DNA of 64,000 bases from Chitinophaga sp. (GTDB lineage: Bacteria; Bacteroidota; Bacteroidia; Chitinophagales; Chitinophagaceae), in NCBI RefSeq assembly GCF_019236475.1, contig NZ_JAFAIX010000010.1, positions 62,001-126,000 of the forward strand, given 5' to 3'. The notes beneath the pieces are model-generated. The model made no database searches, was not told where the DNA came from, and saw only the letters and a list, made by a program, of their open reading frames with translations. The position numbers and the translations under genes were made by a program. Of this stretch, positions 25,468 through 53,482 are shown one piece after another (the first letter of the stretch is position 1; each line of letters starts with the position of its first letter).

Positions 25468-25529
25468 CCCCGTTAAAATTGGGATGGGAGAGGGTTAAAG
25501 TCTATTCCTTCTTGATTTATACAAAAAAA

Positions 25530-25710
25530 TGTTATGGTTCAATGCTTACAAATCTGCTAAGCATTGATTAAAAGGGAACTCGGGTGCAAATCCCGGACAG
25601 TCCCGCTGCTGTAAATCTCATCAATGATGCACTGGCAATCCATCACAGGTCACTGTTTCGAAAGAAATGGGAAGGCCGCCAGCGCAGAGATAAGTCAGAA
25701 TACCTGCCAT
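25530..25710 (+). promoter_or_regulatory. Cobalamin riboswitch
   Basis: The conserved core is present: AAAAGGGAAC at 25570-25579, CGGGTGCAAATCCCGGACAG, CCCGCTGCTGTAA at 25602-25614, and the B12 box GATAAGTCAGAATACCTGCC at 25689-25708. The order and spacing match adenosylcobalamin-type riboswitches. About 125 bases separate its end from the receptor start at 25836, room for an expression platform that blocks expression when B12 is plentiful. An open frame that starts inside the element (25584) is not translated from there. Confidence 0.93.
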
Positions 25711-25835
25711 ACGTGTTGATTTTTGAGCTTTCGTGGAATGAGGCTCGGAATGATGATCCGGTACAGACGTACTGTATTCATACTATTTCCATTTCTCTAA
25801 GAAAGCTGTTAAGTGGTCAATTAACAGATTGGTTT

Positions 25836-46049: not shown

Positions 46050-47759
46050 ATGTTCGAATGGCTCATCCACACCCTGCAGAAATACCCTGAAATTGCAGTG
46101 ATGTTAACCCTCATGCTGGGGTACCTAATCGGAAAAGTACGTATCAAAGGCTTTACCCTTGGCACCGTAACTGGTGTACTACTCGTAGGTATTTTCATAG
46201 GCACTTATCATATACATATCCCCGATGGCGCCAAAGCCATTTTCTTCCTCTTCTTTCTGTTTTGTACGGGTTATGGTATCGGGCCACAGTTTTTTCAAGC
46301 GTTGAGAAAAGACGGGATGCCCATTGCCGTATTTTCATTTATGGTATGTGTCAGTAGTTTGCTACTCTGCTGGATCATCTCGTCCATATTACGTTTTGAA
46401 ATAGGAACGGCCGCGGGCTTCATGTCTGGCGCCAATACTTGCTCCGCTATTATCGGGGTGGCCTCTAATAGTATTAAGGATCTTAATATCCCGGATTTCG
46501 AGAAATCAAAATACTTGGACCAGATACCCGTAGCATATGCCGTTACCTATATTTTTGGTACTGCTGGCACTAGCTGGTTCCTCTCTGTGATTGGCCCCTG
46601 GTTTATGTCTGGCAGCAGGGCAAAACTGATTGAAGAAACCAAGCAACTGGAATCGCAACTGGCCGAATCGGCCACGGAAGAAGAAGGCGCTCCTACCAAT
46701 GCATACGATAAAGTGGCTTTCCGAGCCTATCTACTCAGTAGAGATATTATCGGTGATGGCCAAACAGTAACGGAACTGGAAGATTCCCTCAAGGCCAAAG
46801 GTCGTATGCTCTGGATGCTGCGCGTACGGCGGGAAGGGAGGCTGATATCCCTTACGCCGGATCTCATTTTACATGCAGGAGATATCGTAGCAGTAGGAGG
46901 GCAGCGGGTTTCAGCCATCGGCGCAGATAGCCTCTTAGGTAAAGAAGTAGCAGATGTTGAACTCCTGACCTTCCCGGTGCAAGATGCCATGGTATATGTC
47001 ACCAATAGAAGTATTATCGGCCACCATATACGCAGACTCGCTGCTGATCCTTGTTTTAGAGGTATCAGCGTCCGTAAACTCACGAGGGCAGGGATTGAAA
47101 TCCCTTTATCTCCACTAACGGTGCTCGCCAAAGGAGATGTATTAGAATTAGTAGGTATCCAACAAGACCTAGACAGGGCCATCAAATTACTAGGCTTCAA
47201 GGAGAAAACCGGGGTGGAAACAGATATCATTTACATGGCCGGTGGTATCGTAATCGGTGCTTTGGTAGGAGCCCTATCTGTAAAGGTGGGAAAAGTACCC
47301 CTGGAACTCAGTACCAGCGGCGGTTCGCTCATAGCTGGGCTCTTTTTTGGCTGGTTACGCAGTGCCAGACCTACTTTTGGCTATATCCCGCCATCTTCGC
47401 AATGGGTATTGGCAAAATTGGGTCTGCATGTCTTTATTGCGATAGTCGGACTCACTTCCAGCGAAGGATTCCTGACTGGATTGAAACAGGAGGGTATCAC
47501 CCTCTTCCTAGCTGGTATCGTATTAAGCCTTTCTCCTATGGTACTGGCGCTTTTTCTTTCCAAATACGTCTTCAAATTTCATCCGGCGGTAGGGCTGGGA
47601 GCCTGTGCTGGCGCGCATGACGAGTCGGCCCCACTACTGGCTATACAGGATGCGCTGAATAGTAAGGTGCCCGCACTAGGCTATACAGTAGCCTATGCCG
47701 TCGCCAATATCACCCTCACCACTTCAGGGGTCATTATTGTACTCCTAATGAGCCATTGA
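46050..47759 (+). CDS. AspT/YidE-type membrane transporter with two RCK_C domains
   Basis: The 569-residue protein (ATG at 46050) has N-terminal membrane helices (about residues 1-190), two TrkA_C/RCK_C domains (about 220-290 and 305-380; MLRVRREGRLISLTPDLIL and SVRKLTRAGIEIPLSPLTV), then further helices (about 395-569; HPAVGLGACAGAHDESAP). This is the plan of the aspartate:alanine exchanger/YidE/YbjL family. The transported solute is unknown for most members. The RCK_C domains suggest gating by a cytoplasmic ligand. Confidence 0.87.
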   Translation: MFEWLIHTLQKYPEIAVMLTLMLGYLIGKVRIKGFTLGTVTGVLLVGIFIGTYHIHIPDGAKAIFFLFFLFCTGYGIGPQFFQALRKDGMPIAVFSFMVCVSSLLLCWIISSILRFEIGTAAGFMSGANTCSAIIGVASNSIKDLNIPDFEKSKYLDQIPVAYAVTYIFGTAGTSWFLSVIGPWFMSGSRAKLIEETKQLESQLAESATEEEGAPTNAYDKVAFRAYLLSRDIIGDGQTVTELEDSLKAKGRMLWMLRVRREGRLISLTPDLILHAGDIVAVGGQRVSAIGADSLLGKEVADVELLTFPVQDAMVYVTNRSIIGHHIRRLAADPCFRGISVRKLTRAGIEIPLSPLTVLAKGDVLELVGIQQDLDRAIKLLGFKEKTGVETDIIYMAGGIVIGALVGALSVKVGKVPLELSTSGGSLIAGLFFGWLRSARPTFGYIPPSSQWVLAKLGLHVFIAIVGLTSSEGFLTGLKQEGITLFLAGIVLSLSPMVLALFLSKYVFKFHPAVGLGACAGAHDESAPLLAIQDALNSKVPALGYTVAYAVANITLTTSGVIIVLLMSH

Positions 47760-47791
47760 AAATAAATTTCGCCACTTTTTTAACATTTCTT

Positions 47792-47822
47792 TTTGTAGAT
47801 AACAGAATAACCCCTAGCTTTG
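47792..47822 (+). promoter_or_regulatory. Consensus Bacteroidota promoter of the SusC/SusD operon
   Basis: TTTG (47792-47795), exactly 19 bases, then TAGCTTTG (47815-47822) match the -33/-7 consensus TTTG-N19-TAnnTTTG without mismatch. Transcription should start near 47829, giving a leader of ~255 bases before susC that contains a short Cys-rich frame. A small inverted repeat (CTATA-AGTC-TATAG, 47828-47841) lies at the expected start. Confidence 0.85.
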
Positions 47823-47859
47823 CGCTCCTATAAGTCTATAGAATTAATAGGGTAATAAA

Positions 47860-47952
47860 ATGAAACTCATGACAGGGAACCACATACGAAGAAACCAACT
47901 GCAATGTACTGCTTACTCACCGTGTTGTTGCGATACCCGAATGTATTGTTGA
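47860..47952 (+). CDS. Cys-rich 30-residue leader peptide upstream of SusC/SusD
   Basis: I do not know a named family. An ATG at 47860 opens a frame of 30 codons, ended by TGA at 47950-47952. The product begins MKLMTGNHIRRNQLQC and ends SPCCCDTRMYC, so five of 30 residues are Cys (16, 22-24, 30), with three in a row. It lies inside the 5' leader made by the consensus promoter, ~30 bases after the predicted transcription start, with an A-rich sequence (GGTAATAAA) before the ATG, typical of Bacteroidota starts. 132 bases separate it from susC. A run of Cys codons in a leader suggests ribosome stalling when cysteine is short, with an effect on downstream expression; that is inference. No clear terminator/antiterminator pair is seen, but TTTTTT near 48050 follows possible weak hairpins. 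Confidence 0.72.
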   Translation: MKLMTGNHIRRNQLQCTAYSPCCCDTRMYC

Positions 47953-48084
47953 TATAGCCGCACCATCAACTAACACCAACTAAATAACAAGGGAAACAGA
48001 GCTTGGATACCTGGCGCCGTATAGGAGCTGGGATGACCATTTCATGCTTTTTTAAAACAACAAAACCTCCATAATTAAAATATT

Positions 48085-51000
48085 ATGTCACAACGATTAC
48101 TATTAGTTTTTCTCGTGTTGCTGGGCCCTGTATTGGGTTACGCACAAACGCGCACGGTAACAGGTACGGTATTGTCGGCACGCGACAAGGCGCCTTTACC
48201 TGGAGCAACCGTAGTGGTGAAAGGTACTTCCAAAGGTACTGCCACCAATGTAGACGGTGCTTTTAAATTAGACATCAATGATCCCGCGGCCACCACGCTG
48301 GTGGTGAGCTTTATAGGTATGACACCACAGGAAGTGGCTATAACAGCAGCGCCTATACGTATCTCCCTGGAATCTTCCAGTAAGGATATAGATGAGGTGG
48401 TGGTGATTGCCTATGGTACTGGTAAGAAGAATTCACTCACGGGTTCTGTGTCACAGATTAAAGGGGCAGAATTGGAAGATCGCCAGATCTCCAGTGTTTC
48501 CCGCGGTCTGCAAGGACAAGTAGCGGGTGTGCAAAGTACCGCCCAGAGTGGACAGCCTGGTTCTGATGCTACGATCCGCATCCGTGGTATTGGCTCTATC
48601 AATGCTTCTTCTGATCCATTATATGTGGTGGATGGCGCACCATATACAGGTAGTATTAATGCGATCAATCCATCTGATATTGAATCTATTTCTGTACTGA
48701 AAGATGCTGCTTCCAGCGCCCTGTATGGTTCTCGCGGTGCAAACGGCGTGATTATCATTACCACTAAGAAAGGGAAAGGCAATGGTACCAATATCAATGC
48801 GCGTGTAAGCCAAGGTTATTCTAAACGCGCGGTGAAGGATTATGCGCAGATGAGTACAGAGCAGTATTTCCAATTATATTGGGAAGCCTTACGTAATACA
48901 GGTCTTACCAATGGCCTATCGGCAGACGCGGCCGCTGCATATGCCAGCGGCAATGTAGTCGGAGACCTAGGCATCAACCCTTTTGGAACGGCGTATCCTA
49001 CACCAGTAGGACTGGATGGAAAAATCGTAGCAGGCGCTCACCCGCTCTGGAACGATAACTGGAATGATGCATTACAACGTACTGGGCACCGCACACAGGC
49101 GGATGTATCTATCAGCGGTAGTTCCGATAAAGCAAGATATTATGTTTCCGGCGGATACCTGGATGATCAAGGTATTTACCTGGGCTCTGGCTTCAAACGT
49201 TATAATGTACGTACCAACCTGGATTTGGATGCTAAGAAATGGTTGAAAGTGGGTATGAACCTCGCTGCTGCACATTCTGACCAACAAGCGCCTCCTTCTG
49301 AAGATAGCCGCTCTGATAACTATGTGAACTATGGCAGATTAATGCCATCTTTCTATCCTGTATACCAACGCGATCTTGCAACAGGCGCTTATATCCTGGA
49401 TGCGAACGGCAATAAGATCTTTGATTATGGCGCTTATCGTCCAAGTGCCAGCAATCCTAGGTCTAACCTGGCACAAACTGCCAATATCGATCTGCACAAT
49501 GTACTCCTGGACAACGTGTCTGCCCGCACTTTTGCAGAAGCCACTATCTGGGATCAGTTGAAATTTAAGACTACTTACAGCGCCGACTATACGCAGCGCA
49601 TGACCCATGATTACACGAATCCAACTTTAGGTTTTGATGCACCTATTGGTGGTACCGTAGATCGTGGTAGCTTCCGTACATTCAGTTGGACATTCAACAA
49701 TATTCTTACCTACGATAAAACCTTCCAGCAGAAACATCATATTAGCTTACTCGCTGGTCAGGAAGCTTATAAATACAAGTATACCTTCATCGACGGAAAC
49801 CGCTCCGGCTTTGCGCTGCCAGGTGTGAACGAACCTGCTGACGCCTCTGTACTGCTGGGCTACACTGGTTATACCGATGTATTTACTTTATCCAGTTACC
49901 TGTCACGTGCAGAATATGACTACAAAGGAAAATATTTCTTCTCTGGATCACTGCGTCGCGATGGTTCTTCCCGTTTCTCTCCAGAAAAACGTTGGGGTAC
50001 CTTCTGGTCTTTAGGCGGTTCTTGGAAAATGACGGAAGAGAATTGGCTGAAAGAGGCTAAGTGGCTGGATCTCCTGACGCTCCGCGCTAGCTATGGTGCG
50101 CAGGGAAATGACAACCTGGGTACTTTCTATGGTTACCAGAAATTATATGTGTCGAACCCCAACCTGGGAGAAGGTGGTACTTACCGCGACGCACTAGCCA
50201 ATACCAACCTGAAATGGGAAACAAATCTAAACCTCAACGCAGGGGTAGACTGGTCTATGTTTAATAACCGTTTTGGTGGTACGGTAGAATTCTTCCAGCG
50301 TAAATCAAAAGATCTGCTGTATCAGTTGCCACTGGCGCCTTCTACAGGTTATCCTTCTATTTCGCAGAACATTGGCGCAATGCGTAACAATGGTATAGAC
50401 GTAACATTAAGAGGTGTACCAGTGAGAACCAAAGACTTCCAATGGTCTGTTGACTTCAATCTCACCCATTACAAAAATACGGTGACTGCACTGCCGCAGA
50501 AAGAAATTATCAGTGGTACTAAAAAGTTGATGGTAGGCCACTCTATCTATGATTTCTATATCCGTCAATGGGCGGGTGTTGATGCTAAAACAGGTGCGCC
50601 GCTGTGGTATGTAACAGATCCTACTACCGGCAAGCAAACCACTACTTCCAACTATAGCAGCGGTTCCTTGTATTACTCCGGTTCTGCATTACCAGATGTA
50701 TATGGTGGTCTGACTAATACCTTCTCTTACCGTGGTATTTCCCTTTCTCTCCTCTGGGCTTACAGTCTGGGTGGAAAGGTACTGGACCAAGACTATCCTC
50801 AGTTGATGCATACAGGTAACAATCCTGGTCGTGCATGGTCCGAGGAAATACTCAACCGTTGGACACCACAAAACACCAATACAGATGTACCAAAGCTGAC
50901 GACCAACAATACGAACTGGACTTCTACCTCCACTCGTTTCCTCTACGATGCATCTTATGCGCGTCTGAAGAATGTGAACCTCAGCTATACATTGCCTAAA

Positions 51001-51174
51001 TCTTTATTAGAGAAGGCGCACCTGAATACGGTAACCGTGTATGTAACAGGCGAAAACCTGATTACCATCTACGGTCATAAGGGGATGGACCCTGAGCAGG
51101 CAGTAGCAGGTGTTACTTATTTCCGCTTTCCGGCTATCAAATCCGTATCTGCCGGTATTAATCTGAATTTCTAA
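48085..51174 (+). CDS. SusC/RagA-type TonB-linked outer-membrane transporter
   Basis: The 1029-residue protein has a signal peptide (LVFLVLLGPVLGYAQ), an N-terminal carboxypeptidase-D-like extension (about residues 20-105, RTVTGTVLSARDKAPLPGATV), the SusC TonB box region (DEVVVIAYGTGKKNSLTGSV), plug (IRIRGIGSINASSDPLYVVDG; shown in part, ISVLKDAASSALYGSRGANGVI) and a barrel ending in Phe (SAGINLNF). With SusD it imports a large solute. No glycosidase, sulfatase or peptidase is encoded beside it, so the cargo cannot be guessed from enzymes. A Cys-rich leader peptide precedes it, suggesting cysteine- or sulfur-linked control. Confidence 0.93.
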   Translation: MSQRLLLVFLVLLGPVLGYAQTRTVTGTVLSARDKAPLPGATVVVKGTSKGTATNVDGAFKLDINDPAATTLVVSFIGMTPQEVAITAAPIRISLESSSKDIDEVVVIAYGTGKKNSLTGSVSQIKGAELEDRQISSVSRGLQGQVAGVQSTAQSGQPGSDATIRIRGIGSINASSDPLYVVDGAPYTGSINAINPSDIESISVLKDAASSALYGSRGANGVIIITTKKGKGNGTNINARVSQGYSKRAVKDYAQMSTEQYFQLYWEALRNTGLTNGLSADAAAAYASGNVVGDLGINPFGTAYPTPVGLDGKIVAGAHPLWNDNWNDALQRTGHRTQADVSISGSSDKARYYVSGGYLDDQGIYLGSGFKRYNVRTNLDLDAKKWLKVGMNLAAAHSDQQAPPSEDSRSDNYVNYGRLMPSFYPVYQRDLATGAYILDANGNKIFDYGAYRPSASNPRSNLAQTANIDLHNVLLDNVSARTFAEATIWDQLKFKTTYSADYTQRMTHDYTNPTLGFDAPIGGTVDRGSFRTFSWTFNNILTYDKTFQQKHHISLLAGQEAYKYKYTFIDGNRSGFALPGVNEPADASVLLGYTGYTDVFTLSSYLSRAEYDYKGKYFFSGSLRRDGSSRFSPEKRWGTFWSLGGSWKMTEENWLKEAKWLDLLTLRASYGAQGNDNLGTFYGYQKLYVSNPNLGEGGTYRDALANTNLKWETNLNLNAGVDWSMFNNRFGGTVEFFQRKSKDLLYQLPLAPSTGYPSISQNIGAMRNNGIDVTLRGVPVRTKDFQWSVDFNLTHYKNTVTALPQKEIISGTKKLMVGHSIYDFYIRQWAGVDAKTGAPLWYVTDPTTGKQTTTSNYSSGSLYYSGSALPDVYGGLTNTFSYRGISLSLLWAYSLGGKVLDQDYPQLMHTGNNPGRAWSEEILNRWTPQNTNTDVPKLTTNNTNWTSTSTRFLYDASYARLKNVNLSYTLPKSLLEKAHLNTVTVYVTGENLITIYGHKGMDPEQAVAGVTYFRFPAIKSVSAGINLNF

Positions 51175-51185
51175 AAAACAGCGCC

Positions 51186-52694
51186 ATGAAAAAGAACAGT
51201 TATATACTTACAGCGATATTGAGTGTGGGATTGTTGTCGTCGTGCAGTAAAAGCTTCCTCGACCAACAGCCTACCAACCAGGTACCGGAAGATCAGGTAT
51301 TCACCACCGCAGATAATGTGGAAACGGTTATCAATGGAACCTGGGCTTATGCCATGGAATCATTCTTCACCTATTCCGTACCAGGATATACTTCTATCCT
51401 CCGTGCCAGCGATGCCATGGGAGATGATGTAGCGGTGACTACAAAATATGGTTTACGTGATTCCTACACATTTGTAGAAATGGTAGACAATACCAAAAAC
51501 CGTGTCAGCGCTTACTGGAGCATTCTCTATAAAGTGATTGACAATGCCAATGGCATTATCGCCAATGTAGACAAGGTAACCGGCGACGCTACCCAGAAAG
51601 CCCGTCTGAAAGGACAAGCTTATGCGCTCCGTGGTTGGTGCTACTTGACATTGGCATCTTTCTACCAATTTAATCCGATAGTAGATCCTAACGCCAAGGC
51701 AGTACCTATCTACCTAACGCCTACCACGCCTACTACCAAAGGCAATCCACGTGCTACCATTAAACAGGTGTACGATCAGGCTATTGCAGATTTACAGGCA
51801 GCAGAGCCACTGGTAACAGGATATAGTAGGGGAGACGTGAGCAAAAAATATAAGATCGATCTTAATGTGGTAGAAGGATTGCTGGCAAGAGCCTACCTGC
51901 AAACACAACAGTGGAACCTGGCGCAACAAAAAGCTGCTGCTGCTCGCAATGGTTACCCACTGATGGCGGGAACTGAATACGGCAAAGGTTTCAGTGATGT
52001 TAGCAACGTGGAATGGATCTGGGGACATCCCCAAACGCCCAACCAGAGCAATGCTAGCTACAACTTCCATTTCCTGGATGTAAGCTCTCCTGGTTCTTAC
52101 TACTACAGCTTTATGGCGGATCCGTTCTTCAAGAATTACTTTGATAACGGTGACGTACGTACGCAATTATTCGATTGGGATACATTACCATCACAGGAAG
52201 GATACCTGCGCTATAAAAAATTCCGTTTCCGTGATCAGACGGCTTTAATCGGAGATCTGGTGTTGATGCGTTCTGCTGAAATGGTGTTGATCCAGGCGGA
52301 AGCCTACGCCCGTGGTGGAGATGCAACAAATGCTGCTCTGAAACTGAACGAATTGCGTTCCGCTCGTAATGCATACCAATATGTACCGGGTACTGGCAAT
52401 CTGATCGATTCCATTCTGATTGAAAGAAGGAAGGAACTCTGGGGAGAAGGATTTTCATTGTCTGATATCATTCGTACCAATGGTACCGTGGTGAGAAAAC
52501 CATTCACTTCCTACACTGGCGCGGATTCCATCATACAAGTCCCTCGTGCAGACGGTTCTTTCAAGGCGGTGAAGGCAAAAGGTCACAGAACAGTGCGCTT
52601 CCCTGATGGAACTTCGTTTGTACCACAAAGTAAATTCTATCTCTTCGCTATTCCGTTATCAGAAGTTCAGAATAATCCGAACCTGAATAACTAG
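51186..52694 (+). CDS. SusD/RagB-type surface lipoprotein
   Basis: The 502-residue protein has a lipoprotein signal (SVGLLSSCSKSFLDQQP, Cys20) and SusD helical/TPR features (KGQAYALRGWCYLTLASFYQ, GLLARAYLQTQQWNLAQQ, LMRSAEMVLIQAEAYAR, ELWGEGFSLSDIIR) and a typical C-terminal LFAIPLSEVQNNPNL. It caps the SusC transporter and binds the ligand. It follows susC by 11 bases and ends the operon. Confidence 0.93.
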   Translation: MKKNSYILTAILSVGLLSSCSKSFLDQQPTNQVPEDQVFTTADNVETVINGTWAYAMESFFTYSVPGYTSILRASDAMGDDVAVTTKYGLRDSYTFVEMVDNTKNRVSAYWSILYKVIDNANGIIANVDKVTGDATQKARLKGQAYALRGWCYLTLASFYQFNPIVDPNAKAVPIYLTPTTPTTKGNPRATIKQVYDQAIADLQAAEPLVTGYSRGDVSKKYKIDLNVVEGLLARAYLQTQQWNLAQQKAAAARNGYPLMAGTEYGKGFSDVSNVEWIWGHPQTPNQSNASYNFHFLDVSSPGSYYYSFMADPFFKNYFDNGDVRTQLFDWDTLPSQEGYLRYKKFRFRDQTALIGDLVLMRSAEMVLIQAEAYARGGDATNAALKLNELRSARNAYQYVPGTGNLIDSILIERRKELWGEGFSLSDIIRTNGTVVRKPFTSYTGADSIIQVPRADGSFKAVKAKGHRTVRFPDGTSFVPQSKFYLFAIPLSEVQNNPNLNN

Positions 52695-52918: not shown

Positions 52919-53482
52919 TTAATAAATAAACGGTATCAACCGCTTCGTATGCTCCATATACGCCCTATAACGATCCCCAAATTGCCCCTGCAATACTTTC
53001 TCTTCAATACTAATCCGATAGGAAAAAGCAATGAATACCGGAATAACCACTACGGCTACACTGTACCAGTTATTGTAGGATAAGCCATAGCCGAGAAAGG
53101 AGAGGAGAGATGCGGAATAAGAGGGATGGCGAAGGTACTTGTAAAACCCGTCTGTCTTCAGTTGATGACCTTCCCGAATGGTAACCGTCACGGTGAAGAA
53201 TTTACCAAGAGAGCGAATTGCTGCAAATCGTAATATCACTCCCAATACTACTAACACGAGTCCTGTATAATGCACGGGCCAAAAGTTAGCTGCTATCGGG
53301 GCTTTGGTTCGATAACCCAACTGGGAGGCTGCTACCACGGAAATGATGATCACCAACCAGATGACATTCAAACTGTTTTTATCTTGTTGCTGTTTATCCT
53401 GCTGACTCGGGCGCAAAAGAACATTGAGTAGAATTTCAGAAGTCAGCCACAATACAAAGATGATAAAGGAAAGGAGATGCAT
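52919..53482 (-). CDS. Isoprenylcysteine carboxyl methyltransferase-type membrane protein
   Basis: The 187-residue protein has about five membrane helices and the ICMT/PEMT-type C-terminal signature: LKTDGFYKYLRHPSYSASLLSFLG (near residues 105-130) and a terminal SYRISIEEKVLQGQFGDRYRAYM. Such proteins methylate small or lipid thiols or phospholipids with SAM at the membrane. The substrate is unknown. Confidence 0.87.
   Translation of the reverse strand: MHLLSFIIFVLWLTSEILLNVLLRPSQQDKQQQDKNSLNVIWLVIIISVVAASQLGYRTKAPIAANFWPVHYTGLVLVVLGVILRFAAIRSLGKFFTVTVTIREGHQLKTDGFYKYLRHPSYSASLLSFLGYGLSYNNWYSVAVVVIPVFIAFSYRISIEEKVLQGQFGDRYRAYMEHTKRLIPFIY

Follow-up and report, generated by a model that had tools for sequence, protein, structure and literature searches.

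The leader of an orphan susC/susD pair in Chitinophaga sp. contains a short open reading frame with a cluster of Cys codons near its end, which is conserved in orthologous leaders and lies behind a palindrome whose core also occurs ahead of cysH. We propose, with a probability of roughly 0.7, that this frame encodes a leader peptide through which the SusC/SusD importer comes under a second layer of sulfur control, with stalling of the ribosome at the Cys codons acting as the sensor. The window, i.e., the whole stretch of DNA analyzed, comprises 64,000 nucleotides, and the features relevant here are the following:

47792-47822, + strand: Bacteroidota-type promoter, TTTG-N19-TAGCTTTG (-33/-7), conserved in orthologous leaders
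47828-47856, no strand assigned: palindromic putative operator CTATAAGTCTATAGAATTAATAGGGTAAT, at the expected transcription start or immediately 3' of it, delineated by alignment, its core also before cysH
47869-47952, + strand: Cys-codon leader peptide in its probable 27-codon form (47860 being the start in the initial annotation)
47905-47907, + strand: Cys codon TGT, from the window sequence
47923-47931, + strand: Cys codons TGT TGT TGC, a cluster found in 29 of the 30 Chitinophaga loci first compared
47947-47949, + strand: Cys codon TGT, the final one ahead of the stop, from the window sequence
47953-48084, + strand: 132-nt leader from the stop of the upstream frame (uORF) to susC, in which no intrinsic terminator and no conserved structure were found
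48085-51174, + strand: susC, SusC/RagA TonB-linked outer membrane protein (TIGR04056, 879 bits, cut-off 368)
51186-52694, + strand: susD, SusD/RagB family lipoprotein

The frame at 47860-47952 encodes MKLMTGNHIRRNQLQCTAYSPCCCDTRMYC followed by a stop, with Cys at codons 16, 22-24 and 30. The initial annotation had given the same frame and the same Cys positions, which could be reproduced from the sequence, but the length of 30 codons that it assumed probably needs correction. The first ATG of the window (47860) reads ACG in the closest relative (L002/L110), where the frame begins at the ATG equivalent to window position 47869. Because the first ATG is lost there, a start at 47869 is likelier, and the leader peptide probably consists of 27 codons (MTGNHIRRNQLQCTAYSPCCCDTRMYC). 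A short frame bearing three consecutive Cys is not at chance level in this leader, as dinucleotide shuffling of 47823-48084 produced CCC-containing frames of 10-60 codons in 5 of 5000 trials. Furthermore, the frame has two properties of leader peptides: it is short and lies in the leader behind a promoter, which is predicted from sequence, and its run of Cys codons near the stop is kept at the amino-acid level (29 of 30 loci and, in addition, L140). The -33/-7 promoter described initially was also recovered, at 47792-47822; the motif alone is at chance level in the window (1 match vs 1.52 expected, and at least one in 77 of 100 shuffles), yet it is conserved in the orthologues. Likewise, the description of an orphan SusC/SusD operon was borne out, since the gene following susD (52919-53482) is convergent. 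No sulfur gene adjoins the window susC/susD. The named SusD proteins nearest to the one encoded here agree with an origin from Chitinophaga.

A DNA search with the leader gave matches in 15 of 59 genomes, with Cys-ended frames of differing sequence. Orthologous loci were collected with the N-terminus of SusC at E 1e-120, which matched 36 of 79 Chitinophaga genomes, and all 36 loci (30 and a further six) were compared. The absence of a conserved Cys frame from relatives, set beforehand as a refutation of the leader-peptide idea, was looked for; what we found is a Cys-cluster frame in the susC leader of 30 of the 36 loci, and the idea stands. Among the first 30 loci, 29 have both the operator and a Cys-cluster frame of 17-32 codons, and L126 has neither. 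Of the further six, L140 and L139 have a diverged palindrome, which is followed by a Cys frame only in L140; L144 has an operator-like site but lacks the Cys frame, and L141-L143 have neither element. The close ones among the six frameless loci are L126 (71% identity) and L139 (65%).

The frames share a Q-P pair, followed 7-10 codons later by two to five consecutive Cys, a spacing found in 29 of 29 frames. Q is kept in 28 of them (CAA in 19, CAG in 9), P in 26 (CCA in 17, CCT in 5, CCG in 4) and the first two Cys of the cluster in all 29, as TGT or TGC. As Q, P and Cys are kept while their codons vary, this drift points to conservation at the amino-acid level, as judged from related rows rather than from a dN/dS figure. 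Outside Q-P and Cys, both the residues and the length vary widely. A CCCD-x-R tail, which had been suggested as the signature of the peptide, does not serve as one: CCCD occurs only in the window and in L125, and the conserved elements are Q-P and the Cys cluster.

At E 1e-130, no SusC orthologue was found among the other genera in 198 genomes of the order. A leader model (R2), run on 396 genomes of the order with stricter filters at which weak matches are lost, matched 23 at E 0.01, the four strong matches (E <1e-19) all being Chitinophaga. Inspection of 25 further R2 loci revealed a Cys frame only in L163, also from Chitinophaga, where the operator and the frame MYNFFRSSGCMPCCCS (ending ...CMPCCCS) stand ahead of a redoxin-domain gene. 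A hairpin-like stretch followed by TATTGCC lies shortly before susC in L141-L144, L126 and many Chitinophaga leaders, with or without a Cys frame. One weak match of the leader query, L016 (G029:C1:1206314), falls into a CRISPR-like array with the repeat GTTTTAATCGTACCATAGAGGAATTGAAAT and is coincidental.

The promoter-proximal palindrome that precedes the Cys frame, AGTCTATAGAATTAATAGGGTAAT, lies directly 3' of the -7 box, and 15 such sites gave the consensus CCATTAGTCTATAGAATTAATAGGGTAAT. In the window's own genome, an operator profile (R1) yielded six matches at E up to 1: the window susC leader (E 8.4e-7), the region ahead of an AhpC/TSA-family gene (E 7e-4), another susC/susD (E 0.005), a TonB receptor on the other strand (E 0.02) and, both at chance level by E alone, a homologue of the L178 amino acid permease (E 0.31) and a 1-Cys-type peroxiredoxin (E 0.32). 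Many operator-bearing genes, several susC among them, have no leader peptide, and the operator therefore does not need one. A second class of susC genes (L009, L010, L014, L015, L033, L150, L151) has the operator 28-35 nt ahead of the ATG and no Cys frame. The leaders of L126, L139 and L140 have CCTAC/GTAGG instead of the half-site CTATA at the operator's place, with palindrome and promoter spacing persisting, which perhaps reflects a regulator with altered specificity. In another genus (L177:3907-4654), three operator-like sites are found around a TonB receptor gene, which adjoins genes for a 3-keto-disaccharide hydrolase and a cupredoxin-domain protein.

The cysH site in the window's genome was found by a separate operator matrix, R1 having missed it. 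We compared 30 of 40 Chitinophaga cysH matches: among the matches listed, the operator core lies 57-122 nt upstream of cysH in 30 of 30 loci, the background being 0.014 per 160 nt (20 regions, real sites included), and an Rrf2-family gene lies at most 1.5 kb upstream in 29 of 30. In L102, the sole locus without the Rrf2 gene, the contig breaks off after 1009 upstream bases. A cluster headed by an Rrf2 gene in a different genus of this family (G375/L176) has an operator site between cysHDN, named by resemblance only, and SUMT-cysJ-cysI; there, SUMT matches TP_methylase (PF00590), the sulfite reductase exceeds its cut-off (NF010029, 750.4 bits) and cysJ stays below its own (544.8 bits). At nine cysH loci of other genera, a simple operator expression matched in two from Chryseobacterium (L259, L267), which also have an Rrf2 gene, and the core was absent from the other seven. 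Two cysH copies in opposite orientation, ~5 kb apart, were observed in one Chitinophaga genome (G061:C9:296539-297219 and 301776-302456).

The Chitinophaga Rrf2 protein is sequence kin of the CymR and IscR chains and passes the cut-off of the Rrf2 superfamily (117.1 vs 73.3), but it fails that of the CymR equivalog (78.7 vs 195 bits). Since its C-terminal half contains four Cys (PCVSL...ERCENC...VCGL in L075:7672-8088), as does that of the L176 homologue, a metal or Fe-S site may be present. The arrangement resembles cysteine regulation by CymR/Rrf2 in that the Rrf2 gene lies near cysH and the palindrome is common to the cysH operon and the susC leader, and differs from it in the score under the CymR cut-off and in the four Cys. 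From this gene neighbourhood, we infer that the palindrome at 47828-47856 would be bound by a protein, namely the CymR-like Rrf2 protein.

A combination of operator-like site and Cys frame was also found in Mucilaginibacter, where 37 of 100 genomes searched were matched at 41 places and 30 loci among the matches listed were compared. In 18 of these, a Cys frame (e.g., MKTFLHPHSGTKYHMQPREMRMCCTCCCC and MNTQIINLTFKLTGVGFSTRMCMPCCCC) follows, at a distance of 10-70 nt, the position with the best operator score in the upstream 700 nt; the operator calls are such best-scoring positions, the lowest score with the Chitinophaga matrix being 2.8, and 11 of the 18 leaders matched a strict operator expression. 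Sixteen of the 18 were mapped, and sulfatase genes lie downstream in 13; they were not seen in the operons of L299, L300 and L312. L224 and L226, whose SusC belongs to another clade, have Cys frames and adjoin sulfatase genes, accompanied in L226 by a gene for a formylglycine-generating enzyme. The remaining 12 loci have no pair of operator and Cys frame directly ahead of susC, L280 showing a CC frame without operator. In the four of the 12 that were mapped, susC is internal to a longer operon, and the heads of these operons, looked at afterwards, have a Cys frame in four of four cases (e.g., MQPELLPKYGLANYQLTTAAFSFSCCCC). Each of these frames lies behind a site of the same type, two flagged by the strict expression and two visible in the sequence. 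The Q-P rule was not seen in the Mucilaginibacter frames. As judged from sequence, the device of operator and Cys frame is thus found repeatedly, ahead of targets that differ but have sulfur or thiols as their common theme.

We also assembled 80 related susC loci from named genomes, of which 74 with at least 400 nt upstream were scanned. Among these leaders, those of C. arvensicola, C. terrae and C. varians have the operator and a Cys frame. A loose criterion (CC or at least 3 Cys in a short frame) flags 11 of 71 non-Chitinophaga leaders, including L181, L190, L202, L206, L207, L225 and L245, and this rate is the background against which the Chitinophaga result has to be weighed. The Cys frames of Chryseobacterium L185 and L188, located behind a SAM riboswitch in a stem-like stretch, were left uncounted. 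In Pedobacter sp. Hv1 and two Chryseobacterium, operator-like sites are followed in the susC leader by SAM riboswitches (RF00162; 76.6, 66.8 and 68.8 bits, gathering 44.4; 18 loci run through Rfam). The window leader gave nothing credible against Rfam in 47700-48200, two hits there being at chance level. Elsewhere in the window, a cobalamin riboswitch lies at 25518-25725 on the + strand (RF00174, 97.5 bits, gathering 31.5). In a tree of 27 SusC proteins, the three riboswitch-linked proteins and those of Chitinophaga fall into one group of 16 rows (99/98), and Mucilaginibacter L224 and L226 lie outside it. Other members of this group showed neither Cys frame nor riboswitch, and we therefore do not extend sulfur control to the whole SusC subfamily. 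RF00162 is absent from the window leader; as it occupies the susC leader in related Pedobacter and Chryseobacterium loci, it probably answers a related need there.

Owing to the conserved Cys frame, the operator shared with cysH, the SAM riboswitches and the sulfatase operons, the link of the importer to cysteine and sulfur appears strong by association. This part of the initial suggestion, that the frame reports the cysteine or sulfur state, is therefore retained; as to the rest, we infer binding of the palindrome, stalling as the sensing step, attenuation and a sulfur-bearing cargo.

The first layer of the proposed control rests on the shared operator: the Rrf2, CymR-like regulator encoded beside cysH would bind the palindrome at 47828-47856 and repress when sulfur is plentiful. 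The second layer rests on the anatomy of the leader, which is that of an amino-acid leader peptide, with a frame that starts near the promoter and has a Cys cluster towards its end, a leader of 128-210 nt and then the gene. When Cys-tRNA is scarce, the ribosome would slow at the Cys codons near the frame end and alter the fate of the 132-nt leader, allowing expression of susC and susD; with plentiful Cys-tRNA, the ribosome would finish and leave, and expression would be attenuated. The Q-P spacing of the Chitinophaga frames is not accounted for by tRNA charge alone and may mark help of the nascent chain in stalling.

A classical attenuator was considered as the output and rejected: consensus folding yielded 4 weak pairs for a leader group of 23 rows and 6 for a second group of 6 rows, and no conserved terminator or alternative hairpin was found in the Chitinophaga and Mucilaginibacter leaders. 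A terminator scan gave no hit in 47700-48200, and across the leaders its hits were scattered, at varying places in 10 of the 29 from Chitinophaga and 8 of the 18 from Mucilaginibacter. Taken as a whole, the window leader has a poorer fold than its shuffled versions (z 1.84). A helix between the Cys codons and downstream RNA gave a Fisher p of ~1e-5 over 29 related Chitinophaga rows (7 of 29 below 0.05 singly) and 0.09 in Mucilaginibacter (2 of 22), with a p of 0.61 for the window itself; it is a hint only, suggestive in one Chitinophaga subclade. Behind the uORF, fold z-scores are near zero (mean -0.64 in Chitinophaga and -1.09 in Mucilaginibacter, -0.21 for a susC coding control), and C exceeds G in 28 of 29 Chitinophaga and 17 of 17 Mucilaginibacter leaders (L285 left out). 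Taken as signs of a Rut-like leader, these values lend weak support to Rho. In the tna operon, a stalled ribosome blocks Rho-dependent termination. As no conserved intrinsic terminator was found, the likeliest output here would be of this form, with the stalled ribosome blocking Rho-dependent termination, followed by translational control.

Among other explanations, the nascent peptide itself might be the sensor, its Cys cluster binding a metal such as Cu(I) or reacting with thiol-active compounds and thereby setting translation arrest. The Q-P pair 7-10 codons ahead of the cluster in all 29 Chitinophaga frames suggests a constraint on the peptide, several operator targets are thiol-redox genes, and a precedent is CruR of Bordetella, a copper uORF that contains a Cys motif and precedes bfrG, a TonB-dependent transporter gene (PMC9426467, as far as its available text goes). 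However, the operator is common to cysH and not to recognized copper genes, the relatives are accompanied by SAM riboswitches and sulfatases, and the Q-P rule does not extend to Mucilaginibacter. The available description of CruR further names a DUF2946 protein, CXXC, RAPP and a Rho-dependent output; the 29 Chitinophaga frames showed no RAPP-like end and no conserved CXXC, nor were DUF2946 or copper sensing seen with them. We therefore regard a peptide sensor as improbable.

We judge equally small the chance that control is transcriptional only, via the palindrome, with the Cys frame being incidental or a weak modulator. Such control would account for the operator ahead of many genes without a leader peptide, for the susC genes of the L009 type with merely 28-35 nt from operator to ATG and for the lack of conserved leader structure, but not readily for Cys frames that are kept in 30 of 36 loci and that recur, in peptides otherwise different, in a separate Mucilaginibacter SusC clade and before a redoxin gene. 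That the frame encodes a functional small product made with the importer, metallothionein-like or a modified peptide, is very unlikely: its Cys-rich end and its place as the first frame of the presumed transcript would fit, but apart from Q-P and Cys its residues and its length (17-32 codons) vary widely, no peptide-modifying gene was recognized among the window neighbours scanned, and the genes that follow this device differ.

Stalling at the Cys codons, our preferred reading, has counterparts in other phyla, which we compare here as far as the available parts of the sources go. Polycysteine leader ORFs precede actinobacterial cys operons (Seliverstov et al. 2005, PMC1262725; Canestrari et al. 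2020, cited in PMC13236596), and for the mycobacterial leaders, which have no conserved terminator, Rho was suggested (PMC1262725). They share with the window a short frame with a Cys run near the stop, a connection to sulfur genes, the lack of a conserved terminator and the proposal of Rho. The leaders described here differ in belonging to Bacteroidota, in heading an outer-membrane importer or sulfatase operon rather than cysteine biosynthesis, and in the cysH-shared palindromic operator at the promoter and, in Chitinophaga, the Q-P spacing. The uORFC-8-2 motif before cysS of Rhodobacterales is also a uORF with tandem Cys codons, for which ribosome-mediated attenuation was proposed (PMC8632094), but it has stems and an intrinsic terminator, neither of which is conserved in window-type leaders. 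In Bacteroidota, leader-peptide attenuation before amino-acid operons appears in a Flavobacterium transcriptome (PMC9723704) and sORFs reminiscent of leader peptides in a B. thetaiotaomicron map (PMC7366714); in the text available, neither matches the present case. Among open-licence PMC papers, we found no Cys leader peptide described in Bacteroidota or before SusC/SusD. Thus, Cys leader peptides are known in other phyla, and their placement in Bacteroidota before SusC/SusD is what appears new.

A bolder version, which we consider possible but doubtful, would see a widespread two-layer sulfur-scavenging switch of Bacteroidota, with an Rrf2-type operator and a poly-Cys leader heading SusC/SusD importers, sulfatase operons and thiol-redox genes and being replaceable by SAM riboswitches. 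The near-constant Q-P spacing in Chitinophaga would then mean that the nascent chain takes part in the arrest and that peptide and tRNA charge are both read by the ribosome, with the orphan SusC/SusD pair dedicated to organosulfur import.

Orphan SusC/SusD pairs with no cargo assigned are numerous and are usually assumed to serve carbon supply. The operator together with the Cys frame would provide a label, readable from sequence, that predicts which importers and sulfatase operons serve sulfur supply. If our reading is right, Cys leader peptides extend from Actinobacteria and Rhodobacterales to Bacteroidota and to import across the outer membrane.
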